Origin: Microbacterium salitolerans
GTDB lineage: Bacteria; Actinomycetota; Actinomycetes; Actinomycetales; Microbacteriaceae
NCBI RefSeq assembly: GCF_019720895.1
Contig: NZ_JAHKSH010000003.1
Span: 186,001-250,000 of the forward strand
Direction of reading: 5' to 3'
Length of the DNA: 64,000 nt
Position numbers and translations under genes: made by a program. Numbering within the stretch: the first letter of the stretch is position 1; every line of letters starts with the position of its first letter. The notes beneath the pieces are model-generated. The model was not told the origin of the DNA. It did not search any database and saw only the letters and a program-made list of their open reading frames with translations. Of the stretch, positions 5,529 through 52,531 are shown one piece after another.

Positions 5529-9565
<4,037 letters not shown>

Positions 9566-16453: not shown

Positions 16454-17740
16454 ATGCCGGGAATCGTGATCGTCGGCGTCCAGTGGGGCGACGAGGGCAA
16501 GGGCAAGGCGACGGATCTGCTCGGTGAGCGCACCGAGTGGGTCGTCAAGTTCAACGGCGGCAACAACGCCGGTCACACGGTCGTGATCGGCGACGAGAAG
16601 TACGCGCTGCATCTGCTGCCATCCGGGATCCTGTCGTCGGGCGTGACGCCCGTCATCGGCAACGGCGTGGTCGTCGACCTCGGCGTGCTGTTCGAGGAGC
16701 TCGAGGGCCTCGAGGCGCGCGGCATCGACACGTCGAAGCTCAAGCTCAGCTCGAACGCGCACATCATCACGCACTACCACCGCACGCTCGACAAGGTGCA
16801 GGAGCGCTTCCTGGGCAAGCGCCAGATCGGCACGACCGGCCGCGGCATCGGCCCGGCCTACGCCGACAAGATCAACCGCGTCGGCATCCGCGTGCAGGAC
16901 CTCTTCGACGAGTCGATCCTGCGGCAGAAGGTCGAGGGCGCCCTCGACCAGAAGAACCACCTGCTCGTGAAGGTGTTCAACCGCCGCGATATCACGGTCG
17001 ACGAGATCGTCGAGGACCTGCTGTCGTACGCCGAGCGCGTGCGTCCGATGGTCTGCGACACGGGGCTGCTCCTCAACGAGGCGCTCGATCGCGGCGAGGT
17101 CGTCGTCTTCGAGGGGGGCCAGGCGACGATGCTCGACGTCGACCACGGCACCTACCCGTTCGTGACGTCGTCGTCGGCGACGGCGGGCGGTGCGGCCACC
17201 GGATCCGGTGTCGGGCCGAACCGCCTCGACCGCATCGTCGGCATCGTCAAGGCGTACACGACGCGCGTCGGCGCGGGCCCGTTCCCGACGGAACTCTTCG
17301 ACGAGGACGGCGAATGGCTGGCCCAGCGGGGCCACGAGTTCGGCACCACCACCGGGCGACCGCGCCGCGTCGGCTGGTACGACGCCCCGATGACGCGCTA
17401 CGCGACCCGCATCAACGGCATCACCGACCTCGTGCTCACGAAGCTCGACGTCCTGACGGGCCGCGAGACGATCCCCGTGTGCGTCGCCTACGAGGTGAAC
17501 GGCGAGCGCTTCGACGAGGTGCCGGTCAATCAGACCGACTTCCACCACGCGAGGCCCGTGCTCGAGGACTTCCCCGGCTGGGCCGAGGACATCACGGGAG
17601 CCCGCACGTTCGACGACCTGCCGAAGAACGCGCAGGACTACGTGCTCGCCCTCGAGAAGATGAGCGGCACGCGCATCTCGGTCATCGGCGTCGGCCCCGG
17701 CCGCGACGAGGTCATCGTGCGCCACGACCTCATCGACTGA
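16454..17740 (+). CDS. purA: Adenylosuccinate synthetase
   Basis: 428 aa, the normal family length. It joins IMP and aspartate using GTP, the first committed step to AMP. The N-terminal P-loop-like [17 protein letters not shown] (residues 6-22), [10 protein letters not shown] (about 36-45), [16 protein letters not shown] and the C-terminal [14 protein letters not shown] are all diagnostic. The start is set by AAGGGGA upstream and by the motif position at the N-terminus. A DDN-family gene follows after 31 nt and may be co-transcribed. Confidence 0.98.
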
Positions 17741-38467: not shown

Positions 38468-40777
38468 TCAGCCCTTCTGCTCGGCGATGGTCGGGCCGAA
38501 GTGCTTCGGTAGCGTCGAGGCGGACAGCTCGCGGAGCTCGGCGGCGGAGAACGTGCACACGTCCTGGATCTCGAGGTCGCTCTCGGTGTCGGTGACGCCG
38601 ATGCGCATGACGGGGTAGCCGCGCCCCTCGCACAAGCCGCGGAACTTGACGTCCTCTTCGCGCGGGACCGTGACGAGAACGCGGCCCGTCGACTCGGAGA
38701 AGAGGGCGTTCGAGAGGTCGACGCCGTCGCGCGTCATGAGCTCGCTCAGCCAGACCCGGGCGCCGACGCCGAAGCGCATGACGCCCTCGGCAAGGGCGAG
38801 GGCGAGGCCGCCCTCGGAGAGGTCGTGCGCGCTCGAGATGAGCCACTCGTCGCGCGCCGCCTGGAGAAGGCCGCCGAGGCGCTTGTGCGCCGGGAGGTCG
38901 ACGACGGGGGGCGTGCCGCCGAGGTGACCGTGGATCACGTCGGCCCAGGCGGAGCCGCTGAGCTCGCCCGCGGTGATGCCGAGCAGGTAGATGTTCTCGC
39001 CCGCGTCCTGCCAGCCGCTGGGGATGCGGCGGGAGACGTCGTCGATGATGCCCATCACGCCGACGACGGGCGTCGGGTGGATGGGGGTGTCGCCCGTCTG
39101 GTTGTAGAACGAGACGTTGCCGCCCGTGACCGGGACCGCGAGCTCCTGGCAGGCGTCGGACAGGCCGTCCACTGTCTGCGAGAACTGCCACATGACCTCG
39201 GGGTTCTCGGGGGATCCGAAGTTGAGGCAGTCGGTGACCGCGGTCGGCACGGCGCCCGTGACGGCCACGTTGCGGTACGCCTCGGCGAGGGCGATCTGCG
39301 CGCCCTGATAGGGGTCGAGCTGGCAGAAGCGGCCGTTGCAGTCGGTCGCGAGCGAGACGCCGAGACCGGACTGCTCGTCGACGCGGATCATGCCGGCGTC
39401 GTCGGGGAACGAGAGGGCGGTGTTTCCGAGCACGTAGTAGTCGTACTGGTTCGTGATCCAGCTCGTGTCGGCGAGGTTGGGGCTCGCGACGAGTTGCGCG
39501 AGCTGCTTCTTCAGCACCTCGGGGTCGTTCGATCGGGGAAGCGCGCCGGCCGAGTCGTCCTGCAGCGCATCGATCCACGTCGGGCGGGCCACGGGGCGGT
39601 CGTAGACGGGGCCGTCGACGGCGACGGTCGACGGGTCGACGTCGACGATCGTCTCGCCATCCCAGGTGATGATGAGGCGGCCGTCTCCGGTGACCTCGCC
39701 GAGGACGCTGGTCTCGACGTCCCACTTGCCGGTGACGGCGAGGAAGGCATCGAGCTTCTCGGGAGCGACGATCGCCATCATGCGCTCCTGCGACTCGCTC
39801 ATGAGGATCTCCTCGGCGGTGAGCGAGGGGTCGCGGAGCAGCACGCTCGTGAGCTCGACGTTCATGCCGGATCCGCCGTTGGCCGCGAGCTCGCTCGTGG
39901 CGCAGGAGATGCCGGCCGCGCCGAGGTCCTGGATCGCCTCGACGAGCTCGCCCGAGTAGAGCTCGAGGCAGCACTCGATGAGCACCTTCTCGGCGAACGG
40001 GTCGCCGACCTGCACGGCGGGGCGCTTCGTGGGGCCGCCGTCGCTGAACGAGTCGGACGCGAGGATCGATGCGCCGCCGATGCCGTCGCCGCCCGTGCGC
40101 GCGCCGAAGAGGACGACCTTGTTGCCGGCGCCCGTGGCATTGGCGAGGCGGATGTCCTCGTGGCGCATCACGCCGACCGCGAGCGCGTTGACGAGGGGGT
40201 TGGCCTGGTAGCAGGAGTCGAACACCGTCTCGCCGCCGATGTTGGGCAGGCCGAGCGAGTTGCCGTACGAGCTGATGCCCGCCGTGACGCCGTGGACGAC
40301 GCGCGCCGTGTCGGGGTCGTCGATGGCGCCGAAGCGCAGCTGATCCATGATGGCGACGGGGCGGGCGCCCATCGAGATGATGTCGCGGACGATGCCGCCG
40401 ACGCCCGTGGCCGCGCCCTGGAACGGCTCGATGTACGACGGGTGATTGTGGCTCTCGACCTTGAAGGTGACGGCCCATCCCTCGCCGACGTCGACGACGC
40501 CCGCGTTCTGGCCCATGCCCACCATGAGGCGCTCGCGCATCTCGTCGGTGACCTTCTCGCCGAAGCGCTTGAGGTACTTCTTGCTCGACTTGTAGGAGCA
40601 GTGCTCCGACCACATGACCGAGTACATCGCCAGCTCGCCCGACGTGGGGCGGCGGCCGAGGATCTCGCGGATCTCCGCGTACTCCTCGGGCTTCAGGCCG
40701 AGGGCCTCATACGGCTGCTCGCGGTCAGGGGTCGCGGCGGCGTTCTCGACGGTGTCGGCGACGTGTTCGATGGTCAC
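38468..40777 (-). CDS. purL: Phosphoribosylformylglycinamidine synthase subunit PurL
   Basis: 769 aa from GTG 40777. It is the ATP-dependent synthetase subunit that makes FGAM from FGAR in purine synthesis, working with PurQ and PurS, which are not in the window. Typical blocks: [50 protein letters not shown] and [14 protein letters not shown] near the end. Two AIRS-type domain pairs fill the normal length of about 740-770 aa for the small-subunit type. CTGGAG lies before the start. A 52-aa membrane protein follows at 7 nt. Confidence 0.97.
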
Positions 40778-41798: not shown

Positions 41799-43235
41799 TC
41801 AGACGTCGCCGCGGCCCGCCGCGAAGGACCCCTGGAGTGCGCTCCAGCGGACGCTCTTCAGCAGCGTCCCCGCGAGATAGACGGCGGCGCCGGCGATGAT
41901 CGCGGCGGGCGCGCTCGCGAGCCAGGCGAACGCGGCGCCGGCCGCGACGAGCGACCCCGTGCCGCGCAGGACGCGGTGCAGGCGCATCGCTCGCCGCACA
42001 CGGTGCCGGGCGGCCACCACCACCGGGGCGGGGTCGGACTCTCCCGCGTGCGTGATCTGCCGATCGAGTTCGGTGAGCACCTCGATCTCGTTCGCGAAGT
42101 ACCGCGCGTGGTCGGCGAGCGATGCCGACTGGACGATCTTCGTCACGCGGCTCGGGTCCCCGAGCACCGTGAACGGGTGCGACACCAGGTCGAACGTGGC
42201 GCACATGTCGACGCCGGGGAGATCGGGCCGGCACAGGTCGCGGACGCCCTCGACGGCGGGCGAGAACACGCGGGCGTAGACGATCACGGCGAGCGCGATG
42301 AGCGGGATGCATACGAGTGCGGCCAGGGCACCGGGCGAGAACATGGCGCTCGCGACGGCGTCGGGCACGGAGGTCGGATCCGTCCTGAGCGCCCGGACGG
42401 CCGCGACGGCACCCGCGATGGCCTCGAAGACGCCGACGAAGAGCGCCCTCATGACGACGAGAGCGGCGGCGACGTAGGTGAGGATCGCGACGACGAGCGC
42501 GACGATCGACGCGCCGGGCACCCCGAGCGATGCGCGCACCGGCGCGAGCAGCGCCTGCCCCGTGCCCATCGTCACGAGGGTCGTGCGGTTGGGATCCAGG
42601 ACCCGTGAGGCGTTCGTCGCGATCGCGCCGCCCTGCGAATGGCCGATCAGCACCGTGTGCTGCGCGCCGACCTCGAGGACGCGCGCGGCGACCAGCTCGA
42701 TGACCCCGAACCGTGTCTCGGGGTCGCTCGTCCAGCCGAGCGCGTCGGTGACGAAGTGGCGCAGCTGCGGCACGATCACGACGCCGATCGAGAGCGGGAT
42801 CGCGAGCCCGATCGCGAGGGTGCCGATCACGAGCATCCACGTCATCGCCCGGACGATGCGCCACAGGTACAGGAAGAAGTCGCGGAAGCGCGCTCCCGGC
42901 ATCTCGGCGACCACCTGCCCGTTGACGAGCAGGTGGACCGCGCACAGGACGAACAGGGTGCGCAGGAACCACCAGGCCGCGCGCCACCGCGACGGCTCGC
43001 GCATCTCGGCGTGCCACATGAGGGGATCCAGCACGAGCGAGCGCCCCGATGCGTCCGCCAGGTGCGCGTGGCCCGGGCGGAAGACCTCGCAGGGGTCGGG
43101 GCAGGGCTGCGACGACCACCCGCTCGGCGACGCGTGCAGGTGCGCCGCCAGGCTCTGCACGGAGTACTCGGCGAATGCCTCGTGATCGCGGACGCCGATG
43201 CCGTGGATGACCGGGGCGTAGATGTCGAGAGGCAC
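41799..43235 (-). CDS. Multi-pass membrane protein with lipase-type GxSxG motif
   Basis: 478 aa from GTG 43235; no better start exists, so the start is uncertain. Residues about 75-165 hold two or three hydrophobic helices, then the alpha/beta-hydrolase-like VLIGHSQGGAIATNASRVL motif with the potential nucleophile Ser. More helices at about 240-330 (IVALVVAILTYVAAALVVM, AALVCIPLIALAVIVYARVF) and a C-terminal pair follow. A pattern of membrane helices around a soluble hydrolase core is unusual, and the enzyme class is not certain. It lies 14 nt after the LOG gene and may be co-transcribed with it. Confidence 0.75.
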   Translation of the reverse strand: MPLDIYAPVIHGIGVRDHEAFAEYSVQSLAAHLHASPSGWSSQPCPDPCEVFRPGHAHLADASGRSLVLDPLMWHAEMREPSRWRAAWWFLRTLFVLCAVHLLVNGQVVAEMPGARFRDFFLYLWRIVRAMTWMLVIGTLAIGLAIPLSIGVVIVPQLRHFVTDALGWTSDPETRFGVIELVAARVLEVGAQHTVLIGHSQGGAIATNASRVLDPNRTTLVTMGTGQALLAPVRASLGVPGASIVALVVAILTYVAAALVVMRALFVGVFEAIAGAVAAVRALRTDPTSVPDAVASAMFSPGALAALVCIPLIALAVIVYARVFSPAVEGVRDLCRPDLPGVDMCATFDLVSHPFTVLGDPSRVTKIVQSASLADHARYFANEIEVLTELDRQITHAGESDPAPVVVAARHRVRRAMRLHRVLRGTGSLVAAGAAFAWLASAPAAIIAGAAVYLAGTLLKSVRWSALQGSFAAGRGDV

Positions 43236-43249
43236 GTGTCGCGGGTGGG

Positions 43250-43849
43250 TCAGGCGTCTGACATCTCGGCGTGCGCCTCCCACTTCGGGGTCGGCGCCCG
43301 CCACGAGCGAAGCGCGTCGAGCAGCTCGTCCGGCGACGTCGCCACGATGAGGCCGTCGCGCAGCTCCGCCTTGACGAACCCCTCGGAGACCAGGCGGTCC
43401 ATCAGGTCGAGCAGCGGCTGCCAGAAGCCGTCGACGTCGTACAGCGCGATCGGCTTGGCGTGGATCCCGAGCTGCAGCCAGGTCCACGCCTCGAAGAACT
43501 CCTCGAGCGTGCCGATGCCGCCGGGCAGCGCGACGAACGCGTCGCCGAGCTCGGCCATGCGCATCTTGCGTTCGTGCATGTCGTCCACGACCTCGAGCCG
43601 CGTGAGCTCTTCGTGCGCGATCTCCTTGTCGACGAGCACCTTCGGGATGACTCCGTAGACCTCGCCGCCGGCATCGCTCGCCGCCGTCGCGACCGCGCCC
43701 ATGAGCCCGACGTTCCCGCCGCCGTAGACGACGCCGATCCCCTCGGAGGCGAGGGCGGATCCGACCGCGACCGCCGCCTCCCGATAGGTGGGCTTGGACC
43801 CCGGGGAGGAACCGGTGAACACGGTGACGCGCGAGATCGAGGAGGGCAT
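43250..43849 (-). CDS. LOG-family protein (putative cytokinin riboside 5'-monophosphate phosphoribohydrolase)
   Basis: 199 aa from ATG 43849. The LOG/Rossman-like motif [16 protein letters not shown] carries the PGGxGTxxE active-site signature. [20 protein letters not shown] upstream binds the nucleotide. LOG enzymes release free cytokinins in plants and plant-associated actinobacteria, and related proteins hydrolyse AMP or other nucleoside monophosphates; the real substrate here is unknown. A minus-strand TACGCT (43856-43861) ends 6 nt before the start. Confidence 0.9.
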
Positions 43850-43855
43850 GGGGCC

Positions 43856-43891
43856 AGCGTATTCGGAGCGGCGCCGACCCCCGAATAGGAT
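43856..43891. promoter_or_regulatory. Divergent leaderless promoters of LOG and PanE-like genes
   Basis: TACGCT on the minus strand (43856-43861) and TAGGAT on the plus strand (43886-43891) each lie 6 nt from their ATG within a 48-nt spacer. The arrangement is similar to that at 1855-1894. Confidence 0.55.
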
Positions 43892-43897
43892 CGCTCC

Positions 43898-44809
43898 ATG
43901 CGCATCGCGATGATCGGAATCGGGGCCCTCGGCGGCATCTATCTCGATCGGCTCGCACGCGGCCTGCCCGACGCGGACGTCGTGGTGGTGGCCGACGGCG
44001 AGCGCGCCGATCGGCTCGAGCGCGACGGCATCACGATCAACGGCGAACGCCGCGTGTTCCCGGTCCTGCGACCGGGCGACGCGACGTCGTCCGCCGATCT
44101 GCTGATCATCGCGACGAAGGCGGCCGGCCTCGACCCGGCGATCGCCCTCGCCGCTCCCCATGTCGGCAGGGGCACGATCGTGCTGAGCCTCATCAACGGG
44201 ATCCACAGCGAGCCGATCCTGGCGCGTGCGTTCCCTCGGGCGCACGTGGTCCCCTCCATGACCGCGGGCAGCGACGTCATGCGGCGGGGGAACGAGATCC
44301 GGTTCGCGAACTTCGGACGCATCGCGTTCGGCGACACGGCGCAGAGCGACGCGGTCCGGCGCCTCGGCGAGGTCTTCGCCGGGGCCGATGTCCCCCACGA
44401 GATCCCGCGCAACATGACGCACGTGCTGTGGTGGAAGTTCATGGGCAACGTCGGAATCAACCCGGCCTCCGCGCTCCTCGACGCGACCTACGGCGAGTTC
44501 CAGGGCGGCGACTCGCCTGCCGGCGCGGTCATGGTCGCGGCGCAGCGGGAGCTCATCGCCATCGCGAACGCGAAGGGCGTCGCGCTCGGAGAGGACGACC
44601 TCGCGGAGTGGCTGCGCGTCGTCGGCACCCTCGACCCCGCGGGTGAGACCTCGATGCTGCAGGACATGCGCGCCGCCCGCCCCACCGAGATCGACATCTT
44701 CGCCGGCGTCGTGGTCGAGATGGGGCGCGAGCTCGGCATCCCGACGCCGGTGAACGAGACCCTCTTCCACGGCATCCGAGCGCGTGAGCGGATCCTCGGA
44801 TCCCGCTGA
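43898..44809 (+). CDS. Ketopantoate reductase-family protein (ApbA/PanE)
   Basis: 303 aa from ATG 43898. The N-terminal Rossmann fold binds NADPH ([20 protein letters not shown], residues 3-22). The C-terminal ApbA_C domain contains the family helix [20 protein letters not shown] with catalytic Lys and Asn, and [20 protein letters not shown]. PanE makes pantoate for coenzyme A. Many actinobacterial relatives have other roles, so the call is at family level. It is leaderless and divergent from the LOG gene. The ParR-like gene follows after 121 nt. Confidence 0.9.
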
Positions 44810-44833
44810 CGAGCCGGGCGTGTGGGAGGCCAG

Positions 44834-44930
44834 TATCCTCAGGGGAGGAGCCGACATGCGTGTACGGTGACAGTGGCGGGCGGAGAGCCCCGCGCGCGTC
44901 GCGCAGGCTCGAGGCTGGAGGGGCAGAACG
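44834..44930 (+). promoter_or_regulatory. Promoter and leader region of the actin-like cassette
   Basis: TATCCT (44834-44839) and TACGGT (44863-44868) are possible -10 hexamers. GAGCC (44885-44889) with GGCTC (44906-44910) and an inner GCGC/GCGC stem forms a leader hairpin, and GGAGGGG (44917-44923) is the ribosome-binding site of the first gene. GGAG-based words recur at 44825, 44844, 44882 and 44917 without regular spacing, so no parC-like iteron array is proven. Confidence 0.4.
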
Positions 44931-45314
44931 ATGGCGGAGACCGCATCCACGCGCAAGGTGCAGATCACCGTCCCCGTCGCCGACGTCTCGGTCATCGAAT
45001 GGCTGGACGCCCAGTACTCGACGGCGGAGTCGATCCGACGCCTGATCCGCGAGTCCGTGGCCCGCGAGGGCTTCGTCGACGTCGCCAATCGGCCCGTCAC
45101 GCCGCCGGCGCACCCCGCGGCCGTGACACCCGACGTGCCGCTCGATCGGTCCGCCGCCCCCGACGTCCCTCTCGACAGGTCCATCCCGGATGTCGCCGAT
45201 GATCCGGCTGACGAGACCGAGGTCGACCCCGAACCTGCGGCGAAGAAGACGCGCCGTCCGACCGCCGCGGCCACCGCCGCGTCGAACACGATCGACGACC
45301 TCCTCGGCTTGTGA
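44931..45314 (+). CDS. ParR-like adaptor candidate: ribbon-helix-helix protein with disordered linker and C-terminal peptide
   Basis: 127 aa. Residues 8-16 (RKVQITVPV) form a strand, and 18-28 and 31-47 ([16 protein letters not shown]) form two helices, the pattern of a ribbon-helix-helix DNA-binding domain. Residues 52-117 are Pro/Ala/Asp-rich and disordered, with PDVPLDRS repeated at 67-74 and 77-84 and a basic patch at 105-110. The end, [10 protein letters not shown] (118-127), is a short hydrophobic-acidic peptide. ParR proteins bind DNA through such an N-terminal domain and bind the ParM filament through a C-terminal peptide, so the layout fits. The actin-like gene follows 49 nt on. The family name is inference. 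Confidence 0.6.
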
Positions 45315-45363
45315 CTCCCCTCATCTCCCACCACACGAAGCGGAACGAAAGGCTTCTCCCCCT

Positions 45364-46683
45364 ATGACCGCGGACACCATCCATCTCACTGGCGGCATCG
45401 ACGTCGGCAACGGGTACGTCAAGGGCATGATCCTGAACACCGACACCGACGTGCGGGACCGGATCGACCTTCCGAGCGCGGCTGTCGCGACACCGCGCCA
45501 GTCGCCGAAGGTCCCCATCGAAGACGCGGACGCCGCGCAGGTGATGGTCGACGCCGAGCAGGACTTCTACAACCGCCTCGACGCCTCCTTCTCGTCGCCG
45601 CTGGTCGCCGACAGCGACCGCCGTATCTTCGGTCGCGCCGCACTCAGCGTGCGCGGATCCGTCTTCACCGAGTTCGAGGTGCACGACGGGCACGCGAGCA
45701 AGGCCGACCAGGAGCTGAGCAAGCTCCTCGTGCTCGGCGTCTTCGCCGCGAAGGCGCTGCGCGACCACGTGCGCGCCGAGGGCTCGCTGCCCCGACAGGA
45801 GCTCCGCGTCAAGGTGCGGGCGGGACTGGCGCTCCCGATCGCCGAGTTCGTCGCACGCCGTTACGGCCACGCCGGTGAGTTCATCGGCGGCAAGGGCTCG
45901 TCGGTGCACCTCGTGACGATCAAGAACTTCAACACGCCCGTGAGCGTGCGTCTGGAGTTCGAGGACGTGCAGGTCGTGGCCGAGGGCGCCTCGGCGCAGT
46001 TCGCGATCACCGAGAAGGGCGAGCCGCTCGCCGATGCGCTGCTGGCCGACCTGCGCTCGCGCGAGCTCGGGATCCTCCCGGGTGTCACGGGCGCCGACCT
46101 GGTCGCCGCGCAGAACACGATCGGCATCGACGTCGGCGAGGGCACGGTCAACTTCCCCGTGTTCACGATGGGGCGCTTCAACGCCGAGGCCGCGTCGACG
46201 CTCGAGCTCGGCTACGGCACGATCCTCGAGAACGCCCTCGATCGCCAGGACGAGGCCGATCTGCGCTTCACCAGCCGTAAGCAGCTGGCTGACTTCCTGC
46301 AGACGACCCCGACCGTGCTGCAGCGTGGCCGTCACCAGCGTGCGCAGCGCCTGGTCGAGCCCGACATCAAGCACCTGGTCGAGCAGATCCGCCGTTCGTT
46401 CAGCGAGACGCTCAGCCAGTCGGGTGAGTCCACCGAGGTCGTCTACGTGTACGGCGGCGGTTCGGGTCCCATCAAGGACGCGCTGTACCCGGTGCTCATC
46501 GAGGCGGCCGGCGACGTGCCCGTCCTGTACCTCGACGCGCGGTACTCCCGGCACCTGAACCGCGAGGGACTCTTCCTCGCCGTGCGTGCGGCGGAAGAGG
46601 CGGCCAACGCGGCGAAGGACGCGCCGGCCGAGTCGCGCCGTGCGACGCGCACCAAGGAGAAGAAGCCGGCCGCAACGGCCTGA
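45364..46683 (+). CDS. ParM/StbA-family actin-like ATPase, chromosomal
   Basis: 439 aa from ATG 45364. The actin ATPase fold is shown by phosphate-1 motif GGIDVGNGYVKGMIL (residues 10-24), phosphate-2 motif IGIDVGEGTVNFPVF (about 253-267) and adenosine motif VVYVYGGGSGPIKDALYP (about 359-376). The insertion between the motifs (HASKADQELSKLLVLGVFAA) fits the ParM/Alp group. The C-terminal 25 residues are basic and disordered (ESRRATRTKEKKPAATA). ParM polymerises to push plasmids apart. The surroundings are chromosomal, so its cargo is unknown. It is co-transcribed with the adaptor-like gene and followed by a strong terminator. Confidence 0.85.
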   Translation: MTADTIHLTGGIDVGNGYVKGMILNTDTDVRDRIDLPSAAVATPRQSPKVPIEDADAAQVMVDAEQDFYNRLDASFSSPLVADSDRRIFGRAALSVRGSVFTEFEVHDGHASKADQELSKLLVLGVFAAKALRDHVRAEGSLPRQELRVKVRAGLALPIAEFVARRYGHAGEFIGGKGSSVHLVTIKNFNTPVSVRLEFEDVQVVAEGASAQFAITEKGEPLADALLADLRSRELGILPGVTGADLVAAQNTIGIDVGEGTVNFPVFTMGRFNAEAASTLELGYGTILENALDRQDEADLRFTSRKQLADFLQTTPTVLQRGRHQRAQRLVEPDIKHLVEQIRRSFSETLSQSGESTEVVYVYGGGSGPIKDALYPVLIEAAGDVPVLYLDARYSRHLNREGLFLAVRAAEEAANAAKDAPAESRRATRTKEKKPAATA

Positions 46684-46693
46684 CGCGCTCCAT

Positions 46694-46733
46694 CGACGAC
46701 GGCGCCGTTCCGAGAGGGACGGCGCCGTCGTCG
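46694..46733 (+). terminator. Strong terminator of the actin-like operon
   Basis: 46694-46708 pairs perfectly with 46719-46733 (15 bp, CGACGACGGCGCCGT), extended by TCC/GGG pairs and closed by a GAGA tetraloop (46712-46715). It begins 11 nt after the stop of the actin-like gene, so the cassette is a two-gene transcription unit. Confidence 0.85.
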
Positions 46734-46801
46734 TGCGCGAGAGGGAACACGGATGCCCGCTCCCGTGTTGCACGCTGAGCCGGCCCCGACGAAAGGCGCT
46801 C

Positions 46802-47521
46802 ATGACCACTGTTCTCCCGTCCTCCGACTCGACGGCGACCCCGGATGCCGTGCTCGATGCGCCAGCGTGGTCCTCGCTCACGGGCGCGCACGCGCATCTC
46901 GCGATCGGCAACGCGCTCGTCCGCCGATACCCCGACGACGTGTCGCCCTTCGCCGGTGTCGCCTCCTGGGAGGATCCGGACGTCTGGGGCGCATTGATCG
47001 AGGAGTTCGGGACGGGAGCCGAGACGATGATCTCGCATGCGGACCCCGCCCTCCCGGCGGGCTGGTCCGAGATCTGGCGGGGGAGCGGGCTGCAGCTCGT
47101 CGAGACGGATCGGCTGACGCCGGCGCCCTTCGCGGACGCGGTCGAACTGGGCGCCGACGATGTCGAGGACATGCTCGCGATCGTCTCCCGCAACCAGCCG
47201 GGACCGTTCCTGCCGCGCACGCACGAGCTCGGGCGCTATGTGGGGGTGCGTCGCGGCGGACGCCTCGTCGCGATGGCGGGCGAGCGCCTGCATCCGGACG
47301 GCTGGACCGAGATCAGCGCCGTCTCGGTCGACGAGGAGGTGCGCCGACAGGGCCTCGCCTCGGCCCTCACCCTCGACGTCGCGCACGCGATCCGCGCGCG
47401 CGGCGACCGGGCGTTCCTCCACGCGTCCGCCGCGAACACGGGCGCCGTCGCCGCGTACGAGAAGCTCGGCTTCGAGCTCCGTCGCCGCGTGCCGTTCCTG
47501 CGGGTGCGCACGCCCGCGTAG
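46802..47521 (+). CDS. GNAT-family N-acetyltransferase
   Basis: 239 aa from ATG 46802, preceded by GAAAGG. The N-terminal 110 residues are variable. The GNAT core lies at about 115-235: ELGADDVEDMLAIVSRNQPG, acetyl-CoA binding VSVDEEVRRQGLASALTLDV with the Q/RxxGxG/A pattern, and AANTGAVAAYEKLGFELRRR. The substrate is unknown. It follows the actin-like operon after its terminator and is an independent unit. Confidence 0.85.
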   Translation: MTTVLPSSDSTATPDAVLDAPAWSSLTGAHAHLAIGNALVRRYPDDVSPFAGVASWEDPDVWGALIEEFGTGAETMISHADPALPAGWSEIWRGSGLQLVETDRLTPAPFADAVELGADDVEDMLAIVSRNQPGPFLPRTHELGRYVGVRRGGRLVAMAGERLHPDGWTEISAVSVDEEVRRQGLASALTLDVAHAIRARGDRAFLHASAANTGAVAAYEKLGFELRRRVPFLRVRTPA

Positions 47522-47560
47522 GCGATCTCCGCGACCGCGAGGAGAACTGCCCCGCACGTG

Positions 47561-47589
47561 CTGACACCGCGCGTCGGGCGGCATACACT
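47561..47589 (+). promoter_or_regulatory. Promoter of the GAF regulator gene
   Basis: CTGACA (47561-47566) and TACACT (47584-47589) are separated by exactly 17 nt, a consensus-like sigma-70-type promoter. Transcription would start near 47596, giving a leader of about 32 nt before ATG 47628. Confidence 0.6.
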
Positions 47590-47627
47590 CGACGTCACCA
47601 CCTCCCTCGACGGCGATCGGAGCGTGC

Positions 47628-48920
47628 ATGGCGTCTCCCTGGGCTGCGGCGCAGAGCGGATCCTCGCGGCTGATCCTCGAGCGCGCCTACGACGAGCTCC
47701 TCGCCGGGCATGCGGGGGATCCGCGCCTGCAGGACGTTCGTGCGGTCGTGCGCGAATCGTGGATCCGCTCGCTCGACTCCCTCGTCGCGCCGGACGGGAT
47801 CCCGGAGCTCGACTTCGCCGGCGAGGCCCTTGAGGTGCACCGGCGGGCGCATCCCCTGGCGGCGAGCATGGAGATGATCCGCGGACTGCTGCTGCCCGGC
47901 GACGTCGATGAATCCGGCGTGGTCGTCGCGGTGGGCGATGCCGCAGGGCGCCTGCTGTGGATCGAGGGCGACCGCGAGGTGCGTGCGAGCGTCGGCGAGA
48001 TGGGGTTCATCGAGGGGGCGAACTGGTCCGAGGAGCGCGTCGGCACCGCCGCCCCCGGGACGGCGCTCGCGCTCGATCGGTCCGTGCAGGTGCGCGGGTC
48101 GGAGCACTTCAACCGCCATGTGCTTCCGTGGTCGTGCACGGCGGCCCCCGTGCATGACCCCGAGACGCGTGCGCTCATCGGCGTCATCGACGTGACCGGG
48201 CGCGAGACGGCGGCCGCGCCGCAGGCGCAGCTGCTGGTCGACGCGACCGTGCGGGCCGTCGAGAGCGAGCTGCTCATCGCCCGCATGCGACAGCGCGACG
48301 AGCGGCCTCGCCGGCGCGCTGAGGCGACGCCCGCCCGTATGGTCCTCCGCGTGCTCGGGCGCGATCGCGCGATCCTCGAGGCGGGCCGCGCATCCGTCGC
48401 CCTCGGGGTGCGCCATGCGGAGGTCCTGTTCCTGCTCGCCGCGCATCGCGACGGGCTCAGCGCCGAGCGTCTCGCGGAGCTCGTCTACGGGGATCCGCGC
48501 GCCGTCGGCACTCTGCGGCCCGAGCTCGTCCGTCTGCGCAGGGTCCTCCACACGCACGCCCTGCCGCTCACGCTCGAGTCGCGGCCGTACCGGCTCACGG
48601 GGCCCCTCGACACCGACGCGCAGGACCTCCTGTCGCTGCTCGATCGTGGCGCGCACCGGGTCGCGCTGGCGGCGTGGAAAGGCGACGTGCTGCCCGACTC
48701 CCGTGCTCCCGGCGTGGAGGAGTTGCGCGAGACCGTGCGAGGCGCTCTCCGCGAGGCGATGCTCGACGAGGCCGGCGTCGACGCGCTCCACGACTACCTG
48801 CAGACCGACGTGGGCCGAGACGACATGGAGGCCATGCGGCTCTGCCTCGGCATGCTGCCCGCGAAGTCGCCGCGTCGCGCGGGCCTCGTCGCCCGTCTCG
48901 AGCGGTGGGGGCGGGTCTGA
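47628..48920 (+). CDS. GAF-domain transcriptional regulator of aldehyde dehydrogenase
   Basis: 430 aa. A helical N-terminus is followed by a GAF sensor domain (about residues 60-195: [60 protein letters not shown]). The C-terminal region (about 235-320) is a winged helix-turn-helix-like segment ([20 protein letters not shown]). The gene order regulator, aldehyde dehydrogenase, DUF779 is widespread in actinobacteria, where the regulator is thought to sense aldehydes or alcohol metabolites. It has its own promoter at 47561-47589. The ALDH gene starts 83 nt downstream behind a dyad at 48922. Confidence 0.85.
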
Positions 48921-48921
48921 C

Positions 48922-48933
48922 GCAACTCGTTGC
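48922..48933. promoter_or_regulatory. Candidate operator upstream of the aldehyde dehydrogenase
   Basis: GCAACTCGTTGC is a perfect 5-bp dyad around TC, followed at once by a third GCAACTC half (48932-48938). It begins directly after the regulator's stop codon, 71 nt before the ALDH start. It fits a binding site for the GAF regulator. Confidence 0.5.
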
Positions 48934-49003
48934 AACTCCCGGCGGCGTAGCGTCGCGCACGACGCGGCAGTGCCGCCGCGGACGCCATCAAGGGAGACCA
49001 GCG

Positions 49004-50551
49004 ATGACCATCGTCGAAGAAGCCGTTTCGAGTGCCTACGCGGCCCCGGGGGCCGCCGGATCCGTCGTGAGCTACCAGCCGCGCTACGGCCACTACATCG
49101 GGGGCGAGTGGGTGGATCCCGTCCAGGGCGGGTACTTCGAGAACCCCACGCCCATCACCGGTAAGACGTTCACGGAGATCGCCCGCGGCACGGCTGAGGA
49201 CGTCGACCGCGCCGTCGATACGGCGTGGAAGGCCTTTGAGGGCTGGAAGAAGACGTCGCCGACCGAGCGCGCGAACATGCTCAACCGGATCGCCGACCGC
49301 ATGGAGCAGAACCTCGAGCGGCTCGCGGTCGCCGAGACGTGGGAGAACGGCAAGCCCGTCCGCGAGACGCTCGCCGCCGACATCCCCCTCGCGATCGACC
49401 ACTTCCGCTACTTCGCGGGCGCGCTCCGGGCGCAGGAGGGATCCCTCAGCCAGCTCGACGGCGACACTGTCGCCTATCACTTCCACGAGCCACTCGGCGT
49501 CGTCGGGCAGATCATCCCGTGGAACTTCCCGATCCTCATGGCGACCTGGAAGCTCGCGCCGGCGCTCGCCGCGGGCAACTGCGTCGTGCTGAAGCCGGCC
49601 GAGCAGACGCCCGCGTCGATCATGCTTCTGATGGAGATCATCGGCGACCTCATCCCCGACGGCGTGCTGAATATCGTCAACGGATTCGGGATCGAGGCGG
49701 GCGCGCCGCTCGCGTCGCATAAGCGGATCCGCAAGATCGCCTTCACGGGGGAGACCACGACGGGCCGCCTCATCATGCAGTACGCGTCGCAGAACCTCAT
49801 CCCCGTGACGCTCGAGCTCGGCGGAAAGAGCCCGAACATCTTCTTCGAGGACGTCGCCCGCCAGAAGGACGACTACTACGCGAAGGCGCTCGAGGGCTTC
49901 GCGATGTTCGCCCTCAACCAGGGCGAGGTGTGCACGTGCCCCTCGCGCGCGCTGATCCAGAAGTCGATGTACGACGACTTCCTCGGCGACGCGCTCGACC
50001 GCGTCGGGAAGATCACGCAGGGCAACCCGCTGGATCCCTCGACGATGATCGGCGCGCAGGCGTCGAACGACCAGTACGAGAAGATCCTCTCCTACATCGA
50101 CATCGGCAAGCAGGAGGGCGCGAAGGTGCTCACGGGCGGCGAGCCCGTCGATCTCGGGGGCGAGCTCTCGGGTGGGTACTACATCACGCCGACGGTGTTC
50201 GAGGGATCCAACAGCATGCGGATCTTCCAGGAGGAGATCTTCGGGCCCGTCGTCTCGGTCACCGACTTCGCCGACTACGACGACGCGATCGCCACCGCGA
50301 ACGACACCCTCTACGGGCTCGGGGCCGGGGTCTGGAGCCGCAGCGCCGATACGTGCTACCGCGCCGGGCGCGCGATCGAGGCGGGTCGCGTGTGGACGAA
50401 CACCTATCACCAGTACCCGGCGCACGCCGCCTTCGGCGGGTACAAGCAGTCGGGCATCGGCCGAGAGAACCACCTGAAGATGCTCGACCACTATCAGCAG
50501 GACAAGAACCTCCTGGTGTCGTACGCCGAGGGGCCCGCGGGGCTGTTCTGA
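49004..50551 (+). CDS. NAD-dependent aldehyde dehydrogenase (ExaC/AldA type)
   Basis: 515 aa from ATG 49004 with AGGGAGA at 48991-48997. It oxidises aldehydes such as acetaldehyde to acids. The Rossmann region has [15 protein letters not shown], general base Glu271 in LELGGKSPN, and catalytic Cys310 in [14 protein letters not shown], the doublet CTC typical of the ExaC/acetaldehyde group. The length is normal. The next gene, DUF779, overlaps its stop by one base. The regulator gene lies upstream. Together they form an aldehyde detoxification or ethanol-use unit. Confidence 0.95.
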
Positions 50552-50943
50552 TGACGGATCCCGTGGAGAGGGTGGCGGTCTCGGGGGAGGCCGCCGCCCT
50601 TCTGCGCACACTGACGGCGCAGCATGGTCGACTCATGTTCCACCAGTCGGGCGGCTGCTGCGACGGCTCGTCCCCCATGTGCTATCCCGTCGGGATGTTC
50701 CTGACGGGGCCGGGCGACGTGCTGCTCGGCACGATCGACGTCGGGCTCGACGATGCCATCGAGGTGTACATGTCGGAGAGCCAGTTCGAGTATTGGAAGC
50801 ACACACACCTCACGATCGACGTCGTCGACGGTCGCGGCTCGGGCTTCAGCGTCGAGGCGCCGACCGGGAAGAGGTTCCTCATCCGCTCACGTCTGCTCTC
50901 GGACGAGGAGGTGCGGGAGCTCGGACTGCTCGATGGGGCGTAA
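50551..50943 (+). CDS. DUF779-family protein linked to aldehyde dehydrogenase
   Basis: 130 aa. The family block LMFHQSGGCCDGSSPMCYPV (about residues 29-48) carries three cysteines, then DVLLGTIDVGLDDAIEVYM and FSVEAPTGKRFLIRSRL. DUF779 proteins always accompany ExaC-type dehydrogenases; their role is unknown, and the conserved cysteines suggest metal or cofactor binding. The ATG overlaps the ALDH stop (TGATG), so translation is coupled. The HNH gene converges 4 nt away. Confidence 0.92.
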   Translation: MTDPVERVAVSGEAAALLRTLTAQHGRLMFHQSGGCCDGSSPMCYPVGMFLTGPGDVLLGTIDVGLDDAIEVYMSESQFEYWKHTHLTIDVVDGRGSGFSVEAPTGKRFLIRSRLLSDEEVRELGLLDGA

Positions 50944-50947
50944 CCCG

Positions 50948-52531
50948 TCACGCCGGGACCGGTGCCATCTCGCGCGGCGGGGTGATCTCGCCGTTCGCGA
51001 TCCGGTCCGCGAACACCCGCTCGCAGGTCTCGACGCGCGCCTCGTCCCACGCGAGAGCATGCGCAAGCATCGCGTCGGTGTCGGCATGCCGCTCCCGCTC
51101 ACACATCTCCCGAGCCTCCGCCTCGCGCTCGCGTCGTTCCCGAGCAGCACGATCATCGGGCTCCTCCCGGAAGAACACCCGACTGATCGGCTCGTCCGTG
51201 TAGACCAGCCCCGCCGGGCTCGTCCACTCCATGACCCCGCCGGTGATCTGTCTGACCTGCCAGCCGGAGTGGTGCTTCATCACGTGATGCGCCTCACACA
51301 GATGCGCGAGATTCACCACGTCGGTCGGGCCGCCGCGGGCATAGCCTCGCGTGTGATCGATGTCGGATCTTCGGGCCGGTGTCGTGCATCCCGGGAACCG
51401 GCACGTCACGTCGCGCCCGATCAGTGCCCGTCGCTGCTGCTCGGAGGGCCGATATCGATCCACGGCGACGATCTCGCCGGTGTCGGGGCGAGTGAACAGC
51501 CTCTCCCACCCGGCCGCGGACCCCGCGACGATCCGCGCCGTATCGGGTGCGGCGAGCCCGCCCTCGTCGATCCAGGACGTGCCGGTGTCGGGGTCGATGA
51601 TCTGCGAGACCGGGATCGTCACCTGCACGCTCGCCACGATCCCCTGAAGCGCTGTTCCGGTGCCGGCGGAGTGGAGTTCGTGCCCGGTGGGTGAGGCGGT
51701 CAGGAGGATGTCGGCGAGCAGGTCGGCACGCAGCTGATCCATCGTGCGCACATCACTCGCCCCCACCGACAGCGCATCCGACATGTCGATACCGCCGGTG
51801 ACCGGCACACCCCACCCCTGTTCCGGAGCGAACCCGTGCTCCCGTTCGTAGGCGGTGCGGGCACGGCGCCGGTCGGTCTTGATGATCGTCGCCATCTGCG
51901 TGACCCGGCCCTGGATCGCGCGCGCTTCGAGCGTGGGCAGGAACGCCCACAGCTCACTCATCCCGTCCTCACGCTCGGTGACGACCACACGGCGGCCGGT
52001 GCGGGCACGCTGGTGGCGTTCGCGCAGCGACAGCGGGGCGAGGTGCGCGGCGCGCATCGTCGCGATCTTCTCCACCTCCCGGGGAGTGCGCGTCTCCGCG
52101 AACGCCACCACCTGCGCATCGAGCGTCGCCCGGGCACCGGCCTCGAGCGACGCCCCGGTGTCCGCGATGACATCCGCGTGGCGCTTCGAGATGCGCCCCT
52201 CGACCAGGGCGGTATGCGTGACGGGGTAGTCGGTGACGAGTCGCTCGGAGGCGTCCATCCGGTTCTTCGCCGCAGCAGGGTGCGTGCGGGTCGCGGCGGC
52301 GACTTCCGCGGCCATCGCCCGCCGCGCATAGTCGGGACCGTGAGACGACACCGACCGCGCCCCGTCGGCATGAGCGATGCGGGCGAGCTCGGCCAGCAGG
52401 ACGGCCTTCTCGCCCTCGGCGCGCGCGATCACCCGGTCACGATCGACGACCTGCGCGATGAGGCCCCGCACCCGGTCACGCTCGGCAGGTGTCAGCCCCG
52501 CCAGTCGCGTCGCGAACCGTTCCTCATCCAT
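50948..52531 (-). CDS. DUF222/HNH endonuclease-domain protein (13E12 repeat family)
   Basis: 527 aa from ATG 52531, with TAGCCT (complement of 52539-52544) 7 nt upstream. The N-terminal DUF222 domain covers about residues 20-330. The C-terminal HNH motif is TCRFPGCTTPARRSDIDHTR, then HLCEAHHVMKHHSGW, with zinc-binding cysteines and the catalytic His. The family is present in many copies in actinobacterial genomes (REP13E12 in mycobacteria) and is thought to spread by recombination; its function is not known. No repeats or target duplications were seen at its ends. Confidence 0.9.
   Translation of the reverse strand: MDEERFATRLAGLTPAERDRVRGLIAQVVDRDRVIARAEGEKAVLLAELARIAHADGARSVSSHGPDYARRAMAAEVAAATRTHPAAAKNRMDASERLVTDYPVTHTALVEGRISKRHADVIADTGASLEAGARATLDAQVVAFAETRTPREVEKIATMRAAHLAPLSLRERHQRARTGRRVVVTEREDGMSELWAFLPTLEARAIQGRVTQMATIIKTDRRRARTAYEREHGFAPEQGWGVPVTGGIDMSDALSVGASDVRTMDQLRADLLADILLTASPTGHELHSAGTGTALQGIVASVQVTIPVSQIIDPDTGTSWIDEGGLAAPDTARIVAGSAAGWERLFTRPDTGEIVAVDRYRPSEQQRRALIGRDVTCRFPGCTTPARRSDIDHTRGYARGGPTDVVNLAHLCEAHHVMKHHSGWQVRQITGGVMEWTSPAGLVYTDEPISRVFFREEPDDRAARERREREAEAREMCERERHADTDAMLAHALAWDEARVETCERVFADRIANGEITPPREMAPVPA

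Follow-up and report, generated by a model that had tools for sequence, protein, structure and literature searches.

The locus raises the question of whether an actin partition pair of the plasmid or prophage type can settle on a bacterial chromosome, and what it might do there. The window (the whole stretch of 64,000 nucleotides of Microbacterium salitolerans DNA that was analysed) holds an adaptor ORF followed after 49 nt, on one strand, by an ORF for an actin-like protein. The earlier note had placed this pair among housekeeping genes, and purL (38468–40777), purA (16454–17740) and argG (5529–6962) were all confirmed in the window, each scoring above its NCBIfam equivalog cut-off. The parts of the locus and the gene in front of it are:

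43898..44809, + strand: ketopantoate reductase (PanE/ApbA family) gene, identified by Pfam PF02558 and PF08546.
44810..44930, + strand: 121-bp upstream gap with the putative promoter or operator element GTAC[CG][GT]T, from an alignment of 10 upstream regions.
44931..45314, + strand: adaptor gene (AlpA/ParR-like), 127 aa, identified by its ORF, an alignment of 10 adaptors, selection by segment and a plasmid match.
Within 44931..45314, + strand: adaptor layout of a conserved N-terminal domain (about residues 1–56), a variable linker and a C-terminal peptide of 10 residues, from the same alignment.
45364..46683, + strand: actin-like ATPase gene (AlpC/ParM-like, here parM), 439 aa, identified by Pfam, PHROG, alignment, AlphaFold and Foldseek.
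About 46694..46739, + strand: RNA hairpin 3′ of parM, a possible terminator lacking a T run, from folding energy and a terminator scan.

Of the promoter and strong terminator that were thought to bound this unit, the very stable hairpin stands (−50.7 kcal/mol for an 80-nt stretch, z −4.5), but the terminator scan listed no T-run terminator on the + strand and the scan of the locus gave no sigma-70 consensus promoter.

In the alignment of 17 actin sequences residues D13, G15, G17, K20, D256, G258, G260, T261 and G364–G366 are invariant, and we take them to represent the phosphate-1, phosphate-2 and adenosine motifs. The ORFs and these residues agree with the original description of an actin ATPase with three nucleotide motifs lying 49 nt past a 127-aa protein. 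Against Pfam the window protein scores above the cut-off for PF21522 [MreB-like_C] and below it for PF17989 [ALP_N], while both Pfam families are detected in all 17 family members at E 0.1 or better. It is matched by no NCBIfam model. Its match to PHROG 691 [“partition protein”, 1.9e-17] is not specific, since this family is found in the C. glutamicum control genome but in 12 of the 14 controls overall. A profile of the 17 relatives reaches chains of Bacillus thuringiensis ParM by sequence, the best being the hybrid 4xhp [1.7e-07].

The AlphaFold model of the actin (pLDDT 82.6, pTM 0.83) has as its top four Foldseek matches ParM of B. thuringiensis, pSK41 ParM, pCBH ParM and Alp7A, with TM-scores of 0.46–0.68 depending on normalisation and rmsd values of 6.2–8.7; the fold therefore agrees, without close superposition of the whole chains. 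Sequence identity to the solved ParM/Alp chains listed is 10–16%. The Foldseek matches also include 4a62, which is R1 ParM with the ParR C-terminal peptide, and CorM of Anabaena. PHROG 691, the best structures (ParM and Alp7A) and a 44% match on Gordonia plasmid pGKT2 place the protein with the polymerising ParM/Alp actins, where it had been put at the outset. Nucleotide-dependent polymerisation has been shown for AlpC (PMC4446434).

The adaptor gave no convincing family match against Pfam, NCBIfam, PHROG or PDB sequences, and its AlphaFold model is weak (pLDDT 56.7, pTM 0.25), with one helix at residues 21–46 and a short C-terminal helix. By eye its N-terminus follows a strand-helix-helix pattern, and it may on this basis be called ribbon-helix-helix-like; given the failed family searches and the low-confidence model, the ribbon-helix-helix domain announced in the earlier note is not confirmed. 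The net charge of the first 60 residues runs from +1 to −3 in the 10 adaptors, hardly positive, and the N-terminal domain of the adaptors of plasmid-borne relatives is likewise not basic. Median pN within the adaptor (45 pairs, 10 genomes) is 0.146 for residues 1–56, 0.482 for 57–116 and 0.104 for 117–127, a low-high-low course which indicates that both ends are kept and that the linker, including its PDVPLDRS repeat, is free. The duplication of PDVPLDRS is present in the window adaptor as described, whereas all the other listed adaptors lack it; the short C-terminal peptide, on the other hand, is both present and conserved in the alignment of 10 adaptors. A C-terminal peptide and the same N-terminal domain also occur in the plasmid-borne relatives. 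When plasmids were searched with the adaptor, allowing E values up to 1, they gave a single match, to the neighbour gene of the Streptomyces parM [55% over 49 aa, 3e-9]. The Arthrobacter locus has an additional copy of the N-terminal domain that lacks the tail (L004:5325–5519, 64 aa, 40% identical over 43 aa), and its end overlaps the start codon of the adaptor (L004:5516–5920).

Matches to the actin were found in 71 of 72,556 plasmid records, at 69% identity in Streptomyces, 44–45% in Rhodococcus and Gordonia and 24–33% in the rest of the 40 listed. That of pGKT2 covers 92% of the protein at 44% identity, and those of Lactobacillus salivarius UCC118 and L. mucosae LM1 stand at 28–30%. Proteins of the latter two strains appear in a figure legend of PMC4446434, the correspondence being by strain only and not by locus tag; the same paper describes alpA and alpC homologues on pGKT2, in an adaptor-first order unlike that of ParMR. 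An adaptor gene lies directly upstream of the actin, on the same strand, in all 17 actinobacterial loci examined (10 from Microbacterium, one each from Arthrobacter, Streptomyces and Gordonia, and two each from other Microbacteriaceae and from Rhodococcus), in agreement with the assumption that the small gene is conserved with the actin. The adaptors of Gordonia and of Rhodococcus DN22 have the same sequence and are therefore not independent. On the distant IMG/VR contig L066 the adaptor is again beside parM, the order being retained. A similar small gene in L. reuteri lies downstream of the actin, not upstream, and its homology to the adaptor was rejected on a weak profile match (hhalign probability only 22).

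The closest characterised relative is AlpAC-alpS of the C. glutamicum prophage CGP3 (PMC4446434, PMC5539076), which has the same adaptor-then-actin order in an actinobacterial host; the link to AlpC runs via the homologue on pGKT2, which is common to both. According to these papers AlpA too is without recognised homology to ParR; free AlpA disassembles filaments and alpS-bound AlpA stabilises them. AlpAC belongs to an excisable prophage with 24 alpS repeats (TTAAnnG) upstream, whereas here we have a bare chromosomal cassette with a gap of 62–121 bp. With the type II plasmid ParMRC systems (B. thuringiensis ParM, pSK41 ParM, Alp7A) the pair shares the actin fold, the nucleotide motifs, the small adaptor gene and a C-terminal adaptor peptide. 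The usual order in those systems is motor-first (PMC4446434), whereas here the adaptor comes first, no centromere was found and identity is 10–16%.

Two chromosomal precedents were also compared. The chromosome-encoded cParMR of Firmicutes (PMC12270681) likewise joins a ParM to an adaptor, but in another lineage and, for one of them, with an adaptor-bound centromere, Cb-cparC; here several sites are occupied in one genus and no centromere was found. In filamentous cyanobacteria FcmB/FcmC (PMC12645912) is a plasmid-derived actin and adaptor pair which moved to the chromosome. It is conserved in these cyanobacteria, required for rod shape and has the actin first, whereas the present pair is sporadic and has the adaptor first. 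CorM of Anabaena (PDB 9rmi) is grouped with FcmBC for this comparison.

The actin gene is found in 11 of 367 Microbacterium genomes, 10 of which have complete cassettes; in the eleventh (G497) only 92 residues are present, as a fragment at the end of a contig. The genomes G452 and G449 each consist of one contig, so that the cassette in them is chromosomal. These carriers uphold the view that the pair is chromosomal and not confined to one strain, and a single-strain integrated plasmid is ruled out by the several carriers, the chromosomal sites and the empty sites described below. Conservation of the locus across Microbacteriaceae, which had been raised as well, did not hold: the actin is carried by only 3 of 199 genomes in a sample of the family, the window's own included, the flanks differ, and the window site is found in its own genome alone. 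A profile search of a sample of the class at E 1e-20 returned 1 of 394 genomes, again the window's own. The 10 complete Microbacterium cassettes occupy five chromosomal sites:

Site 1, window genome only: between the PanE-like and GNAT genes.
Site 2 (HAD site), G223, G452, G418, G210, G449, G380 and the G497 fragment: after a HAD phosphatase gene near nucS and before a cold-shock gene (neighbours named by family search in G449 only, and by DNA match in the other genomes).
Site 3, G295: after a sucC-like gene, sucD and an Hsp70-like gene, and before a nitroreductase-family gene.
Site 4, G276: between SRAP and M18 aminopeptidase genes, the ORF of the latter, as called, overlapping the parM stop.
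Site 5, G531: flanked on one side by a gene of the enoyl-CoA hydratase family and on the other by an AMP-ligase gene (most like o-succinylbenzoate-CoA ligase, below the cut-off of that model).

The PanE-like gene of the window has no flank match beside the cassette in the other carrier genomes. No integrase or transposase was seen among the annotated genes flanking the Microbacterium cassettes, and the neighbours that were examined included no recognisable plasmid genes.

G242, which of the non-carriers is nearest by purL, has the LOG-like and GNAT genes of site 1 side by side; the window thus has about 3 kb more at this point, made up of PanE, adaptor and actin. G242 alone showed this empty junction: of the regions fetched, 7 of 8 on the purL side and all 3 on the GNAT side are arranged otherwise. 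When window positions 41900–50950 are set against G242 (L119) the blocks are rearranged, with that of 47581–50909 directly after purL; this is a plastic region. The HAD site was empty in all six non-carriers fetched, their HAD and cold-shock regions lying 80–253 bp apart; because the spacer fails to align, the end points are only approximate. Of 363 genomes, 362 gave a match to the HAD gene itself.

In the actin tree the Microbacterium sequences group as a single clade (ultrafast bootstrap 100), followed by Arthrobacter and then by the Streptomyces plasmid. Trees of parM and of purL, built for the 10 complete carriers and holding carriers only, reject each other in an AU test (p 0.0015 and 1.9e-8), from which we infer that the pair moves. 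The six HAD-site genomes form one clade in both trees. Ten non-carriers, however, have a HAD gene closer to that of G210 than are those of the carriers G449, G452, G418 and G223; since non-carriers thus rank among carriers, losses or repeated gains are needed at the HAD site too. This ranking and the small number of carriers (11 of 367) show that the pair is dispensable.

Both genes are open in all 10 complete loci. Median dN/dS (Nei-Gojobori, 45 pairs, 10 genomes) is 0.176 for parM, 0.270 for purL and 0.486 for the adaptor, the G449 purL being represented by its first 1,233 nt only because the gene is in two pieces. These pieces (G449:C1:2685724–2688019) overlap slightly in different frames, through a frameshift or a sequencing error. 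The pair is not decaying; it is under purifying selection.

A centromere array was looked for upstream of the adaptor. The gaps there measure 62–121 bp in the ten Microbacterium loci and, as annotated, 314–811 bp on three plasmids, where the incomplete PLSDB gene table may make them over-long. Iterated repeats (12-mers and shorter words) did not rise above shuffles in the 10 Microbacterium gaps, although degenerate repeats could escape such a search and a binding site may lie elsewhere. Across the 16 upstream regions covered, 12-mers gave nothing and shorter words placed two regions at 1 of 60 shuffles, GTGTCTC four times on the Streptomyces plasmid and GAGACCAC five times in Arthrobacter; with 48 tests made, this is about the chance expectation. 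Places of GAGAC were listed in 15 upstream regions. The alpS motif TTAAnnG is absent from the 10 Microbacterium gaps. The element GTAC[CG][GT]T occurs once in 8 of these 10 gaps as against none of 6 other loci, without a p-value since it was picked after the alignment had been viewed; it may represent a −10 box or else an operator. Dispersed sites were sought in 4 genomes with a 20-mer taken from the promoters at the HAD site, tolerating 3 mismatches at most; this returned the cassette promoters of three carriers and one other place with 3 mismatches, as against 3 hits for a backward-pattern control; none was found in the window's genome.

We favour the explanation, with a probability of roughly 0.6, that this is a plasmid- or prophage-type actin partition pair (of the AlpAC/ParMR kind) which has become established in the chromosomes of Microbacterium as a cassette of these two genes and nothing more. 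Being chromosomal, intact, selected and present at several sites, it may now serve a function of the host cell. By analogy with what is described for AlpA and AlpC, the N-terminal domain would let the adaptor dimerise on DNA close to the adaptor's promoter, and the C-terminal peptide, carried on the flexible linker, would dock on the filament of actin. ATP-driven growth, or shrinkage, of the filament would then move or anchor the DNA held by the adaptor. Since a centromere array would hardly fit in, the cassette probably works from a short operator-like sequence within the locus, or from a few sites elsewhere. A role in chromosome segregation is possible. Counting against this reading are the failure to demonstrate a DNA-binding fold for the adaptor, the near-absence of net positive charge in its first 60 residues, the searches that identified no centromere, and the dispensability of the pair. 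ParB_N-domain genes occur in all 13 genomes searched, which makes replacement of parABS improbable; the function is probably one of accessory positioning, with essential segregation left to parABS. Proximity to the origin was considered but is not claimed: the ParB_N gene is about 57–69 kb from the cassette at the HAD site in G452, G449 and G210 (in G452 counted across the contig ends, a circle being assumed) and 229 kb from that of the window's genome, while the remaining 6 complete carriers have it on a different contig.

A non-DNA role like that of FcmBC would fit the sequence data almost as well, and the strongest rival, which we nevertheless consider rather unlikely, is a domesticated cytoskeleton in which the pair builds cortical or other filaments and no longer moves DNA. 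The chromosomal, selected state of the genes, the failure to detect a centromere array and the non-basic N-terminal domain of the adaptor are all compatible with it, as are the direct FcmBC precedent (PMC12645912) and the appearance of CorM among the Foldseek matches. A presence in 11 of 367 genomes would be odd for a shape system, however, and the adaptors of the plasmid relatives have the same N-terminal domain and a C-terminal peptide and are likewise non-basic, so that nothing specific to the chromosomal copies points away from DNA.

It is quite improbable that the cassette acts in trans on plasmids or excised elements with matching adaptor sites, either stabilising them or destabilising them by competition. 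Its patchy distribution and the tree conflict would suit such a role, and so would its relatives, which are found on plasmids and also, for the distant cassette L027 (G096:C1:324000–343900), some 8 kb away from the gene of a serine recombinase (Resolvase/Recombinase), suggesting an integrated element. Two carriers are single-contig genomes, however, no element with matching sites turned up in searches that did not extend to a motif scan of plasmids, PADLOC gave no defence-system match and tblastn of parM against 50,697 phage records gave none either. A phage origin by sequence was rejected on the latter result; an IMG/VR scan yielded nothing with the single actin protein and 7 contigs with the alignment. 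On NZ_CP109461.1 (L028), the Streptomyces plasmid which is the closest plasmid relative, a TnsA-like protein, an integrase, an ATP-binding protein and TniQ are annotated beside the cassette, and these genes look Tn7-like. That the Microbacterium pair is a functionless relic of integrated plasmids is very hard to credit: plasmid relatives, the sporadic distribution and the ranking of non-carriers among carriers at the HAD site would allow it, but the open genes in 10 of 10 complete loci, the strong purifying selection, the HAD site common to six carriers forming one clade among carriers, and the absence of recognised plasmid genes among the neighbours examined do not.

Chromosomal ParMs have been published for Firmicutes (PMC12270681), FcmBC for cyanobacteria (PMC12645912) and Salactin for Haloarchaea. 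Among the papers listed by our searches of the open-licence literature, none dealt with such a pair in Microbacterium or on core chromosomes of actinobacteria, and a version on the actinobacterial core chromosome at several sites appears to be new. Only tentatively would we go further than the settled partition pair favoured above and suppose that a plasmid pair, as a minimal centromere-less cassette, travels among the core-chromosome sites of actinobacteria and has become a cytoskeletal or chromosome-positioning device of its host, independently of FcmBC. A survey from 2026 (PMC13245405), which covered about 60,000 accessions of plasmids, reported type II (actin) systems only in Pseudomonadota and Bacillota. 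The occurrence of actin and adaptor pairs both on plasmids of Streptomyces, Rhodococcus and Gordonia and in the chromosomes of Microbacterium indicates that plasmid surveys probably miss a divergent actinobacterial branch. With several placements in one genus, and with both carriers and non-carriers, the role of chromosomal ParMs becomes testable by gene removal in soil bacteria.
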